Positions 2-4,725 of a stretch of 14,268 nucleotides of DNA are shown here, piece after piece. Each line of letters begins with the position of its first letter. Position 1 is the stretch's first letter. Both the position numbers and the translations under genes were made by a program. This DNA is from Candidatus Altarchaeota archaeon (GTDB lineage Archaea; SpSt-1190). The notes under the pieces are model-generated. The model saw only the letters and a program-made list of their open reading frames with translations. It ran no database searches and was not told where the DNA came from. The stretch covers positions 1 to 14,268 of the forward strand of contig JAUUZA010000016.1 in NCBI GenBank assembly GCA_030590165.1, given 5' to 3'.

Positions 2-898
2 TCACAATTTCCCTTCTCTTGGTTACTTACTTCAAAAGTAACTTCATTAACCTTCCTTCATGCTTCTTTCGGAATTTTTATTTTAAATAAATTCTCAAAC
101 GACTTTCTTTTATTAAAAGTAATAATAACAACTTTTGTTATTTTTTCAGCAATTATTTCAAGTTTTAAAGCATTCACTCAATCAGATCATAAAAAAATTC
201 TTACACAAACAGCAACAATTTCATTTGGTATCTTAATTCTTCTTTTTGACCACTTATTTTTTGAGAAACTTTTCTTAATTATTTTATTAAGTATTTCAGC
301 ATTATCTTTTCTAATTGAAACATATTCGTCATTCTACCATTATTCATCAGGAGTTGGTTTCAAACGAAAATCACTTACTTCTTTAATTTTTCTTTTAATA
401 ATTTCAACAATCATTTCCCTCCCAATTTTCAGTATGACTTCACTAAATTTTCCACTCATCTTTCTTTCCTTATTTTTATCAACACATTTAATTAAATTGT
501 ATTTTGAAACTTTTTCAGGAGGAATACCACCGAAAGAAAATATTGAAACTTTTCTAACTTTATGTTTAGTAATCATTTCAATCTTGAATTTTGAATTTTC
601 AACAATTAATCTAAATACTTTTCTTCTTTTTTGTTTAATTTCTTTAATTGGTTTTTTAATTTCAAAACTACGTATTCTAATGTCTTTAACTACTTTTCTT
701 GAAAAAATTTGTTCAATTAAACTACCAGAACTACGTCAAGAAGAAGATTTGATTGAACAATGGGGATTTGCATTTGAGAAAATATTTTCAAAACTAAGTG
801 ATTTAACTTATAAATTATTTTCAGGTTCTGTTTTTCATGATGTCATGTACATCGCAGGTTCAATAATTATTTTAGCTGTGGGGGTAATTCTATGTTAA
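2..898 (+). CDS. NuoL/ND5-like antiporter-type membrane subunit, 5' end outside window
   Basis: This is the C-terminal part (298 codons plus stop) of a polytopic membrane protein of the proton-conducting antiporter family shared by complex I, Mrp antiporters and group 4 hydrogenases. The frame is open from the window edge, so the internal ATG at 434 is not the gene start. The first visible residues run PFSWLL, then FLHASF near residue 19, then QSDHKKIL near residue 60. These match the NuoL pattern of a helix with PxxxWLP, the conserved histidine before HAxT, and the DxKKxLAYST segment. The rest is hydrophobic helices with a charged stretch at about residues 230-265 and a final helix, like the long C-terminus of NuoL-type subunits. 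The PPxxGF region is poorly conserved (SLPIFSM). It overlaps the next gene by 7 nt (ATGTTAA), so translation is probably coupled. The family call is strong. NuoL versus Hyf/Mbh-type assignment is inferred from gene order. Confidence 0.82.
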   Translation, partial: SQFPFSWLLTSKVTSLTFLHASFGIFILNKFSNDFLLLKVIITTFVIFSAIISSFKAFTQSDHKKILTQTATISFGILILLFDHLFFEKLFLIILLSISALSFLIETYSSFYHYSSGVGFKRKSLTSLIFLLIISTIISLPIFSMTSLNFPLIFLSLFLSTHLIKLYFETFSGGIPPKENIETFLTLCLVIISILNFEFSTINLNTFLLFCLISLIGFLISKLRILMSLTTFLEKICSIKLPELRQEEDLIEQWGFAFEKIFSKLSDLTYKLFSGSVFHDVMYIAGSIIILAVGVILC

Positions 899-2037
899 CT
901 GTTTCATTACTTCTGGTCTCAAGTTTAATTGCATTGAAAAGAAAAAACATTGCAAGGTGGTTAGCTCTTCTTTCACTTTTCTTTTTCACAAAAAGTTTTT
1001 CATTTGAGTGGTTACCGGGAATAACTTTTTCATGGACGAGTTCGCCTTCCCTTCTTTTCCCTGTTTTTCTATTAATAATTGCTTCCTCTATATTTTATTC
1101 TCGAAATTTGGATAAAATACAAACATCTATGATTTTACTACTGAGTTCAGGAATAATTGGGTTTCTTGGCTCTTCTTCACCCTTCCAACATTTCTTCTTT
1201 CTCGAATTAATGTTATTTCCAACCTTTTATTTAATTAGAAAAGAAGACTCTTTTTCTGCCTTCAAATATTTTGGTTTTATGCAAGTTTCATCCATTCTAA
1301 TTCTTTCAGGACTCCTTGGTGAAGGTTTAATTTCATCAACATTACTTACTCTTGGCTTTGCAATTCAAATAGGACTTTTTCCTTTTCACTCTTGGCTTGC
1401 CGATGCTATCACTCAATCCCCAACCCCTTTAAATGTATTAATCAGCACTTCACTTATTGGATGTGGATTAGTGGGCCTTTTAACTTATTCTTCAACACCA
1501 CTCTTACTCCTTCCACTCGGAATTGTTTCAGCAATTTATGGAGCAATATTAGCCACTACACAAGATGAAGCGCCTCGTTTACTTGCATATTCAACTCTTT
1601 CTCAAATTGGAGTAGGTGTCCTTATTTTAGTATTAAATCCTGAAATTTTACCTCTTTTTATTTCAATACACGCACTAGCAAAAGCCTCATTAATATTTTC
1701 ATTTAATGAAATTTTTGAAAAAACAAGACGTCAAACTCTTCCAGACATACGGATTTTTTCAATTACCCTTTTCATTTCCATACTCCTATCCTGTTTATCC
1801 TTACTTGGTGTTCCTCCCTTACTCGGATTTTTCACTGAATTAAATCTTCTCATTTCAGCATTCACTTTTTCACCATATCTTGGACTTCTAATTGTTTTCA
1901 CTCTTATCCCAACCGCACTTTACTGTGAAAAATTACTTTCAATTTTTAGAAACACCCCAGAACAAAAAATTGAATCGGAAACCCCTTTAATACTTTCAAT
2001 AATTTTAATCATAGGAGGCCTTTTATGGATGTTCTAA
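892..2037 (+). CDS. NuoM/NuoN-like antiporter-type membrane subunit (coupling Lys replaced by Gln)
   Basis: A 381-residue, almost entirely hydrophobic protein, the second antiporter-like subunit of a putative ion-translocating redox complex. Family marks: FLELMLFP with Glu105, equivalent to the essential TM5 glutamate; AIQIGLFPFHSWLADA at 157-172, matching the TM7 KxPxxPxHxWLPDA motif; DEAPRLLAYSTLSQIG at 225-240; HALAKASLIF at 260-269; and GVPPLLGFFTE at 306-316. The TM7 lysine is Gln159, and the later conserved lysine after GF is Glu316. With about 380 residues it is some 100 shorter than bacterial NuoM or NuoN, and Glu105 to Gln159 is 54 residues against 90 in E. coli NuoM. It starts inside the stop of the previous gene, and its end overlaps the next gene by 13 nt. 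Membership is confident. Whether it still pumps ions is open. Confidence 0.88.
   Translation: MLTVSLLLVSSLIALKRKNIARWLALLSLFFFTKSFSFEWLPGITFSWTSSPSLLFPVFLLIIASSIFYSRNLDKIQTSMILLLSSGIIGFLGSSSPFQHFFFLELMLFPTFYLIRKEDSFSAFKYFGFMQVSSILILSGLLGEGLISSTLLTLGFAIQIGLFPFHSWLADAITQSPTPLNVLISTSLIGCGLVGLLTYSSTPLLLLPLGIVSAIYGAILATTQDEAPRLLAYSTLSQIGVGVLILVLNPEILPLFISIHALAKASLIFSFNEIFEKTRRQTLPDIRIFSITLFISILLSCLSLLGVPPLLGFFTELNLLISAFTFSPYLGLLIVFTLIPTALYCEKLLSIFRNTPEQKIESETPLILSIILIIGGLLWMF
2013..2018 (+). promoter_or_regulatory. Shine-Dalgarno site for third antiporter subunit
   Basis: AGGAGG sits inside the 3' end of the preceding coding region, 6 nt before the ATG at 2025. It decides that start over the ATG at 2037. 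Confidence 0.7.
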
Positions 2038-3206
2038 TGTTAACTGCTTTCTTACTTCCTTTTCTCGGGAAATTTAGAAAAATTGCAACTACTTTTGCTT
2101 TCTTCCTTGCTCTTTTCTTAGCGATAAATAATAATTATTTTATTGCTGTTTTCTTTTTCACTTTATCTTTAGCAATATTGTGGTTGTCTGATTGGACGGA
2201 TGCAAAATATCCACTTTTCTTCTTAGCTATGTTTGACTTAATTGGACTTTTAAACAGTTCCAACCTCTTTGAACTTTTTATTTATTTTGAACTTGCAATT
2301 TATGCCTCATATTTTTTAATCGCAGACCCAAATAATTTCAAAACTCTTTTTAGATATTTCGTTGTTAATTCAATTGGAAGTGCTTTTATGCTTTTTTCAA
2401 TTGCTCTTTCCTTCTTCAACACAGGTTCACTCACTTCAATAAGTAATGGACCTTTAATCTTTTTTGTAATAGGGCTCCTCATCAAATTAGGAATTGCCCC
2501 CTTCCAAGACTGGCTTGTTGAAATTTACAAAACAGTCTCTCTTTCATCATCTCTCTTTTTTGCTTCAGTATTAACTTCAGTAAGCCCTCTCGCACTTTTA
2601 TTAGTCATTAAACAACCGTCATTACCTCTCCAATTATTCGCCCTTTTATCTATGTTTATCGCTAATCTAATGGCATTAAGAGAAGATTCCCTAAAACGCA
2701 TCCTTGCTTTATTTGGTGCCTCTAACTTGGCGTATGGTTTACTTGCTATTTCCACGGCAAGTGAAGCTTCAAGATTTGCAGCACTTTTTATTATGTTAAG
2801 CCATGTCATTGCAATAAGTTTTGCACTCACCGCTCTTGCAATATCTCAATCAACAAAATTAAATAACCTAAAAGCTCCGGCAGGACTTGAACTTCCTTTT
2901 TATGCTGCCTTCTTTGCTTTATCTGGTCTTCCACCTTTTCACTTATTTCCTGCAAAACTTCTTTTATTCTCGGCAGTGTTCACTGAATCTCACCCTTTTT
3001 CATATTTATTATTAATAAATTTAGCATTAGGTGCATTCACTTCAATAAGAATTCTTTCAGGAATTCAAGGCTCCATAAAATTAAAGATTCCAAAAAAATT
3101 CAGAATACTTCTTTTTGGTTTTCTCATTCTTTCACTTTTACTTGGACTTTTCCCACTTCTTTTTACGAAAGCACTTCAAAGTCAGATGCAACTTTTTTCT
3201 AACTAA
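2025..3206 (+). CDS. NuoN/MrpD-like antiporter-type membrane subunit
   Basis: The third antiporter-like subunit in a row, 393 residues with roughly a dozen helices. IYFELAIY (Glu89) matches the TM5 glutamate and LLIKLGIAPFQDWL (Lys154) the TM7 lysine motif, so the core coupling pair is kept here, unlike in the preceding gene. Further marks are DSLKRILALFGASNLAYG near residue 222, a histidine in MLSHVIAIS, and SGLPPFHLFPAK near residue 300. A Shine-Dalgarno AGGAGG at 2013-2018 lies 6 nt before the ATG at 2025 and fixes the start. A second in-frame ATG at 2037 overlaps the previous stop. The gene ends tail to tail with the minus-strand hydrogenase maturation gene, overlapping it by 8 nt. The order NuoL-, M- and N-like copies complex I, but the hydrogenase maturation neighbour argues for a membrane-bound group 4 hydrogenase. 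Confidence 0.88.
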   Translation: MDVLMLTAFLLPFLGKFRKIATTFAFFLALFLAINNNYFIAVFFFTLSLAILWLSDWTDAKYPLFFLAMFDLIGLLNSSNLFELFIYFELAIYASYFLIADPNNFKTLFRYFVVNSIGSAFMLFSIALSFFNTGSLTSISNGPLIFFVIGLLIKLGIAPFQDWLVEIYKTVSLSSSLFFASVLTSVSPLALLLVIKQPSLPLQLFALLSMFIANLMALREDSLKRILALFGASNLAYGLLAISTASEASRFAALFIMLSHVIAISFALTALAISQSTKLNNLKAPAGLELPFYAAFFALSGLPPFHLFPAKLLLFSAVFTESHPFSYLLLINLALGAFTSIRILSGIQGSIKLKIPKKFRILLFGFLILSLLLGLFPLLFTKALQSQMQLFSN

Positions 3207-3777
3207 AACATAATGCACCTTTTACAAGGTCATCATATTCTTCCTTAGAAAGTTTTTCAATAACAACACTGGCATGAACTAAAACAAAATCCCCTTCTTT
3301 CAAGTTAGGAACTGCAAACTTAGCTTTTTTATCCTTACCATTAATTTCTATTACTTTTTTTTCAAAATCTTTTATTATTCCTGGAACTGCCATACACATT
3401 TCAATCACCTTTATTGTTTTCCTCGCATTTTCTAATGCTTTCTCACTAATTTTAGTATCAAACACTCGCTTATATGTTTTTACGCCGAAAAAAAGAAAAT
3501 TTGAATCCACAAATTTTTGTATAGTCTTTAACCCAATTTTATGACTATAATTTGAGAAATCTAATTCTTTTGAAATAAGAAAAGGAACATCTTTATTGAA
3601 ATGTGCTGCATCAACAATAATGATTTGTTCAAAACCCTTTAATTCAGTTAAAACATTTTCAGGACTTGCGTACGCAAAAATTACTTTAAAACCTTTATTT
3701 TCAAGAGCTCTACCAATAAAAATACCTACACCATCATCCCCCCTCAATTCATTACCCATTGCAAGAAGACATTTCAC
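3199..3777 (-). CDS. Fusion of [NiFe]-hydrogenase maturation endopeptidase (HycI/HyaD type) and HypC chaperone
   Basis: The N-terminal ~125 residues are a hydrogenase maturation protease, which trims the C-terminus of the large subunit after the nickel-iron site is filled. Marks are MGNELRGDDGVG (normally GNxLxxDDGxG), IIIVDAAHF with the second metal-binding aspartate, and SHKIGL with the expected histidine. The C-terminal ~66 residues are HypC, the chaperone that delivers the Fe(CN)2CO group: CMAVPG at its start and GDFVLVHASVVIEKL later. The domains run on in one frame, so HypC's normally N-terminal cysteine is internal. A good ribosome binding site precedes the ATG at 3399 that would restore it. 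The start is probably GTG at 3777, which puts GN at residues 8-9 as in the family; GTG at 3792 is a longer option. Neighbouring antiporter subunits suggest the client is a membrane-bound hydrogenase. Domain calls are strong; the functional state of the fusion is unknown. Confidence 0.88.
   Translation of the reverse strand: MKCLLAMGNELRGDDGVGIFIGRALENKGFKVIFAYASPENVLTELKGFEQIIIVDAAHFNKDVPFLISKELDFSNYSHKIGLKTIQKFVDSNFLFFGVKTYKRVFDTKISEKALENARKTIKVIEMCMAVPGIIKDFEKKVIEINGKDKKAKFAVPNLKEGDFVLVHASVVIEKLSKEEYDDLVKGALCFS
3397..3412 (-). promoter_or_regulatory. Internal ribosome binding site and ATG at the HypC domain
   Basis: Read on the minus strand this is AAAGGTGAT, a 4-nt gap, then ATG and TGT. 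GGTGAT matches the core of the archaeal Shine-Dalgarno GGAGGTGATC. The ATG is exactly where a free HypC begins (Met-Cys-Met-Ala-Val-Pro-Gly). Translation from here would give a 66-residue HypC with cysteine at position 2, in the same frame as the fusion. Its use in the cell is inferred. Confidence 0.5.
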
Positions 3778-3793
3778 AGGAAACAAACACACA

Positions 3794-3818
3794 ATACTTT
3801 AAGTCTTTTAAGATATTG
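3794..3818. promoter_or_regulatory. Divergent TATA-like promoter region
   Basis: AT-rich gap between the minus-strand maturation gene and the plus-strand transporter. On the plus strand TTTTAAGATA (3806-3815) lies about 26 nt before the ATG at 3838. On the minus strand GACTTAAAG (3798-3806) lies about 25 nt before the GTG at 3777. Both distances fit leaderless archaeal transcripts. Assigned by position and base content only. Confidence 0.45.
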
Positions 3819-3837: not shown

Positions 3838-4725
3838 ATGAATAATGAAACCAAGGGTACTTTATTAATATTATTAACCGCTCTTGAATCGGGAGTTGCA
3901 ATTGTTTTCAACAAATTTTTTGTTCAAAGAATAAATCCAACTTTATTTACTGCACTTCGCGCTTTTTTCATAGGTTTAATTTTTTATGTCATTACCTTTT
4001 TCACTAAACAAAAAACTAAAACTCCATTCAAAAAAATTATTTGGATAGGTTTAATTGGAGGGGGACTAGCTTTTCTCCTATTTTTTAATGGACTTAAATT
4101 AACTACAAGTGGTCGGGCAGCAGTCATTCACAAAACTTTACCTATTTGGGCAAGCTTAATGGCTTTTTTCTTCCTCAAGGAAAAAATAACAAGAAAACAA
4201 ATCTTTGCTCTATTACTTGCAATGTTGGGTTTTTTTATAATTGAATTTGAAAATATCCCGTTTTCAATAAAAATTGGAGATTTTTTGGCCCTTACTGCAA
4301 CACTCTTATGGGCCTTGGAAAACACTCTTTCAAAAAAGTTTATGAATCAAGGAGAATCAAATTGGAGAATAACTTTCGTTCGTATGTTTTTTGGCTCTCT
4401 TTTTCTTTTTGCAGTTGTTTGGATTCAAGGAAATTTTCATTTAATTTTTGAATTAAGTCTTGCACATTGGGGATATATTGCATTTTCAACAGCAATGCTA
4501 ACTTGGTATGTTTTTACTTGGTATTGGGGGTTGAGATATATTAATTTGTCAAAAGCAAGTAGCATACTTCTCATTTCACCAGTAATAGCTATGAGCCTTG
4601 CTCGATTTTTTCTCGGAGAAATACTGAGCGTAATTCAAATTTGTGGCTCCTCATTAATTATCATGGGTGCTTTTATTATTATAAATGAAAAAAGTGAAAG
4701 GAGGAAAAAAAATGAACTCGCTTAA
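3838..4725 (+). CDS. EamA/DMT-family membrane transporter
   Basis: A 295-residue protein with about ten hydrophobic helices in two similar halves, the pattern of the EamA (DUF6) branch of the drug/metabolite transporter superfamily. Family-like segments are the first helix ending near FNKFF, the GLKLTTSGRAAVIHKTLPIW segment at about 83-102 (the family's usual Alx-xxxAs-xAaxlxxxxPlf), FFFLKEKITRKQ, ALLWAxxxxLSKKF at about 157, and the second-half repeat LRYINLSKASSILLISPVIA followed by FFLGE. These proteins usually export or import small metabolites. The substrate cannot be told from sequence. The start has a TATA-like box about 26 nt upstream and no ribosome binding site, suggesting a leaderless message. 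The last 14 nt overlap the next gene, so the two are probably co-transcribed. Confidence 0.85.
   Translation: MNNETKGTLLILLTALESGVAIVFNKFFVQRINPTLFTALRAFFIGLIFYVITFFTKQKTKTPFKKIIWIGLIGGGLAFLLFFNGLKLTTSGRAAVIHKTLPIWASLMAFFFLKEKITRKQIFALLLAMLGFFIIEFENIPFSIKIGDFLALTATLLWALENTLSKKFMNQGESNWRITFVRMFFGSLFLFAVVWIQGNFHLIFELSLAHWGYIAFSTAMLTWYVFTWYWGLRYINLSKASSILLISPVIAMSLARFFLGEILSVIQICGSSLIIMGAFIIINEKSERRKKNELA
4697..4704 (+). promoter_or_regulatory. Shine-Dalgarno site deciding the start at 4712
   Basis: AAAGGAGG, a strong ribosome binding site, lies 7 nt before the ATG at 4712 and inside the transporter's 3' end. It favours that start over the in-frame ATG at 4685, which would place the site within the coding region. 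Confidence 0.75.

Follow-up and report, generated by a model that had tools for sequence, protein, structure and literature searches.

A hydrogenase protease-HypC fusion gene of Altiarchaeota with a conserved internal start predicted to yield a free HypC

Sequence comparison points to a gene that, in very small, uncultured archaea of one family, quite probably gives rise from a single reading frame both to a hydrogenase maturation protease-HypC fusion and to a free HypC of ~66 residues, both of which would serve the neighbouring group-4 hydrogenase. The gene is carried on contig C19 of a draft archaeal genome (724 kb, 88% complete) and lies within the window, by which we mean the whole stretch of 14,268 nucleotides analysed here; its HypC part is the sole HypC of that genome. 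The first-pass annotation had read the gene as a possible source of a long fusion and a free HypC, with internal action of the fused cysteine as the alternative, and the two-product reading is supported by an internal start that is conserved in all six fusions found. If it is true, the gene would be a clear instance of two maturation factors encoded together in an archaeon, one of them made from a conserved internal start that recreates the required cysteine at the N-terminus. The features, in window coordinates, are as follows.

892-2037, plus strand: antiporter-like membrane subunit of the group-4 hydrogenase operon (PF00361, 89 bits; same order in the other fusion genomes)
2025-3206, plus strand: antiporter-like membrane subunit (PF00361, 85 bits), convergent with the fusion gene
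3199-3777, minus strand: protease-HypC fusion gene, 192 residues, GTG start placed by alignment with five homologues
3400-3777, minus strand: hydrogenase maturation protease domain of HycI/HybD type, residues 1-126 (TIGR00072, Foldseek)
3199-3399, minus strand: HypC domain and predicted separate HypC of 66 residues from the internal ATG (PF01455, alignment, Foldseek)
3394-3396, minus strand: TGT codon of the HypC iron-group cysteine, Cys128 of the fusion and Cys2 of free HypC, invariant in 6/6 fusions
3397-3399, minus strand: internal start codon ATG (ATG in 3/6 fusions, GTG in 3/6)
3401-3403, minus strand: out-of-frame TGA at -4 from the HypC ATG, at the position of the real protease stop in the unfused relative G003
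3404-3412, minus strand: internal Shine-Dalgarno (SD) sequence AAAGGTGAT, duplex -8.9 kcal/mol
3798-3803, minus strand: TATA-like CTTAAA, 26 nt upstream of GTG 3777

A complete HycI/HyaD-type protease joined to HypC had been described at this locus, and the description held, since one unbroken open frame covers window 3199-3792 on the minus strand and both profiles scored above their cut-offs. TIGR00072 (hydrogenase maturation protease) matched residues 9-131 with 50.9 bits (cut-off 47.45) and PF01455 (HypC) matched residues 132-188 with 39.7 bits (cut-off 28.5). The HycI equivalog profile gave 40.3 bits, below its cut-off of 119, so the protease is not assignable to HycI itself. Foldseek matched the protease domain to 5zby, 5ija and 1cfz (E 1e-8 to 5e-10) and the HypC domain to the HypC structure 2z1c. 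Residues D15, D56 and H79, which correspond to the nickel-ligand positions of E. coli HybD, were unchanged in 26/26 aligned sequences. Stand-alone HypC proteins aligned with the fused HypC from their residue 1, sharing the start motif M/V-C-M-A/S-V/I-P. The frame and stop of the gene stand as first drawn at 3199-3792, but not its start: GTG 3792 is five codons upstream of GTG 3777 in the same frame, and the latter is the more likely start because five homologues begin at the aligned position. Counted from GTG 3777, the HypC cysteine, earlier placed near residue 128-133, is Cys128.

The fusion is present in one frame in six of the seven genomes of the family (G000, G001, G002, G004, G005 and G006), which belong to five genera of Altiarchaeota, and the search for homologous fusions that had been proposed was thus answered positively. 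The homologues are 47-53% identical to the protein of the window. Both the reading frame and a [KR]V[IV][EK] linker are preserved in all six, given which the fused form is probably also made and selected. In the seventh member, G003, the protease and HypC genes are separate. A scan of the genome contigs with a single peptide gave no match; an alignment-based scan recovered five fusions and none other among 80 loci, with patterns that reach close relatives only; further afield the search was not exhaustive. Across 34 genomes of a control phylum, protease and HypC matches were present, never with one frame spanning both. Loci L051-L054 (Nitrososphaeria), suggested as fusions by match length, were rejected, as they end as plain proteases. 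By eye, a Geoarchaeota HypC (L106, 2930-3850) and a thioesterase-like domain seem to form a one-frame fusion, and a hydrogenase protease frame overlaps the 3′ end of that HypC frame. No plasmid match was found, and a literature search found no paper on such a fusion, nor on DPANN hydrogenases without HypD.

At the junction of the two domains, the SD-like site with correct spacing that had been noticed exactly at the HypC Met-Cys was borne out: AAAGGTGAT (3412-3404) is followed, after N4, by ATG (3399-3397), and a start there gives 66 residues. Conservation of this site, proposed earlier as a check, was found in 6/6 fusions for both the SD and the start codon, with junction duplexes of -8.3 to -9.5 kcal/mol; no relative with the fusion lacked the internal start, an outcome that had been named as refuting. 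The 16S rRNA of G001 ends in TGGATCACCTCC (read as ...GGATCACCTCC) and has the anti-SD, so a pairing partner exists in the lineage. The codon before the cysteine is ATG in three genomes and GTG in three, never another valine codon, and an exchange of ATG for GTG is precisely what a start codon allows; the internal GTG starts may be weak. The valine at -3, three codons upstream, supplies the GGTG of the ribosome-binding site and is encoded by GTG in 6/6 genomes (P ~5e-5, computed with each genome's codon usage; like the other P values given here, this treats six sequences as independent and is approximate owing to shared ancestry), and other invariant valine columns of the fusion use mixed codons. 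A sliding test over the whole gene placed the highest synonymous conservation at residues 119-129 (z 5.6; mean 0.3), the next-best peak being at the gene's own start (z 3.4); elsewhere in the fusion, synonymous sites look close to saturated. When codons were resampled with the peptide preserved, the observed summed SD energy of -53.4 (expected -19.5) was reached in 0/20,000 draws; a start codon at the junction in all six genomes at once came up in 0.6% (P 0.006). An equally strong SD precedes 2% of internal ATG/GTG codons in the window's genome and 2-7% in any one of the six, so a sighting in a single genome is weak evidence; for the six genomes jointly, Fisher P = 2e-5. Taken together, these comparisons indicate that the internal start is kept beyond the needs of the peptide.

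The start of the long form has a different character. SD pairing there is poor in 6/6 fusion genomes (-4.2 to +1.9 kcal/mol), and TTTAAA, CTTAAA or TTTATT lies 26-27 nt upstream in four of them (the window, G001, G005 and G006). An archaeal TATA box is expected at this distance, -26/-27, if the transcript starts at the start codon or close to it, which suggests that the long form is read from a leaderless mRNA. Archaeal operons commonly combine a leaderless first start with a second one led by an SD, and it is this layout that survives here inside one reading frame.

We infer the existence of both products in the following way. A leaderless mRNA read from GTG 3777 would give the 192-residue protease-HypC fusion, and a second entry of ribosomes at AAAGGTGAT, with initiation at ATG 3399, would give free HypC of ~66 residues. 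Once Met was removed from free HypC, the cysteine carrying the iron group would lie exposed at the N-terminus, HypC would hold or deliver that group for the adjoining group-4 hydrogenase, and the protease domain would trim the C-terminal tail of the hydrogenase large subunit. The N-terminal cysteine of E. coli HypC/HybG is essential and its Met is removed (PMC10847431, PMC8692609), which would be a reason to keep a free HypC. The HypC cysteine is not N-terminal in the long form and, judging from the conserved internal start, would be free in the predicted short form.

The strongest alternative is that only the long fusion is made and that Cys128 works in place, as part of a two-domain factor with two tasks, keeping hold of the iron group and cleaving the large subunit. 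In its favour, frame and linker are kept in six genomes, Cys128 is invariant, and the AlphaFold model folds both domains with confidence (mean pLDDT 91.6). In that model residues 112-128 form one helix joining both domains, and Cys128 sits in its last turn, at the domain joint and not at a free end. However, a fusion acting alone leaves unaccounted for a junction codon that is always a start, the constant GTG at Val(-3) and the synonymous peak, and the known N-terminal placement of the cysteine would be lost (PMC10847431, PMC8692609). We judge it unlikely.

In 6/6 genomes the fusion adjoins, convergently, antiporter-type genes of a group-4 energy-converting hydrogenase operon. The stops of the fusion and antiporter genes overlap by 8 bases in the window (3199-3206) and by ~70 bases in G001. 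The hydrogenase large subunit could be read end to end in G000, G001 and G005. It retains RICGICSSAH and DPCFAC, and with them all four active-site cysteines, and has a tail of ~16 residues after DPCFACTDR that the protease, by these sequences, could trim. G004 showed part of this subunit only, and a PF00374 search did not detect it in G002 and G006; the fusion contigs of these two genomes still carry other subunits of the operon. On the other side of the fusion, ~60 bases away and on the other strand, lies an EamA-family transporter gene (window 3838-4725); the neighbour is similar in G001, G002 and G004 and is a different gene in G005 and G006.

Searches of the six fusion genomes, which are 84-90% complete, gave no HypA, HypB, HypD, HypE or HypF above cut-off. 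The joint chance that HypD is absent from all six by incompleteness alone is ~5e-6, for draft genomes throughout, in which Hyp genes may have escaped assembly or may have unrecognised proteins in their place. Among HypC-bearing genomes of the sample, HypD occurred in 30/34 outside the Altiarchaeota phylum and in 1/9 inside it, the sole exception being G003, also the family member without the fusion. There, contig C6 (L034, 5958-7552) carries a second HypC with a GTG start, then HypD and the start of HypE; contamination was considered for this contig and rejected, its GC content of 0.58 and tetranucleotide r of 0.95 fitting the bin. In the same class, G008 and G009 have HypC and HypA, and HypD, HypE and HypF were not detected. 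HypC without HypD was also seen outside Altiarchaeota, in G028, G029, G047 and G055. G047 (L029, 1453-2209) has a HypC-like gene followed by a different, longer partner gene, and in G055 (L042) a HypC-like match falls inside the longer frame; these genes are possibly a separate HypC-family system or another use of HypC.

With the hydrogenase active-site cysteines kept, these absences make the supply of the iron cofactor a puzzle, and they leave the predicted free HypC of the fusion cells with no known scaffold, because its partner HypD was not found. The fusion ties an iron-group carrier to the last cleavage step; the coupling of cleavage to iron delivery that had been proposed is less clear than supposed, with HypA, HypB, HypD, HypE and HypF not found. 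One might suppose that HypC is decaying in these fusions, a leftover from a Hyp pathway since lost, a view with which the missing partners agree, as do the scores of the fused HypCs (35-51 bits), lower than those of most HypCs in the sample. Yet the cysteine, the CM[AS][VI]P and GDxVLxHA motifs and the fold are preserved across five genera, the internal start site is under synonymous constraint and the hydrogenase retains its four active-site cysteines, and decay is in our estimation very unlikely. An intact-looking [NiFe] site without detected HypA, HypB, HypD, HypE and HypF raises the testable question of where Fe(CN)2CO comes from. As a tentative idea, possible but somewhat doubtful, it might not, in archaea so reduced, come from HypCDEF of the cell itself: tethered and free HypC would obtain the iron group from a host or partner cell or from an unknown enzyme, then load and trim the hydrogenase, as a minimal one-gene [NiFe] maturation system.

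The unfused relative bears on how the gene arose. In G003 a single base separates the protease TGA from the ATG of HypC, under a strong SD-like GGGAGGGGAAGTGAT. In the tree, the fused HypCs of all six genomes group in a single clade (98/90) whose sister is the protease-adjacent HypC of G003 (97/93); the second HypC of G003, next to HypD, is placed elsewhere. The overlapping out-of-frame TGA of the first-pass annotation is real (3403-3401), is present at -4 in G000, G001 and G002, and is possibly a relic of the stop of the unfused ancestor. We regard descent of the fusion from an adjacent protease/HypC gene pair as shown by these comparisons; the pair would have been translationally coupled, as in G003, and the HypC ribosome-binding site and start codon would still be selected after loss of the stop. 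That a frameshift in assembly or sequencing joined two separate genes, a concern raised earlier and one that draft assemblies and the unfused state of G003 might encourage, is scarcely credible with six genomes of five genera and at least two sources (vent bins DPANNHV and SpSt-1190) in frame and their junctions aligned.

Like the HycI/HybD/HyaD proteases (TIGR00072, e.g. 5zby, 1cfz), the N-terminal domain has their fold, the GNxLxxDD motif, the Asp-Asp-His positions and a hydrogenase operon as neighbour; unlike them, it passes straight into HypC without a stop codon. The C-terminal domain shares with the HypC/HybG/HupF chaperones (PF01455, e.g. 2z1c, 3vyr) the Met-Cys-x-A/S-V/I-P start, the GD-V-VHA motif and the fold, but is encoded as the end of a protease gene in a genome in which no HypD, HypE or HypF was found. 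The coupled protease-hypC pair of G003 comprises the same two genes in the same hydrogenase context and is closest in the tree, whereas its frames are separate and its genome has HypD and HypE. A parallel is Cas11, which is made from an internal start inside cas8/cas10 (Haloferax Cas11b, PMC11899642). As predicted here, one archaeal gene then yields a large protein and also the C-terminal portion of it, by way of an in-frame internal start with an SD-like site; the proteins are unrelated, and in the fusion the predicted internal start would restore a chemically required N-terminal residue.
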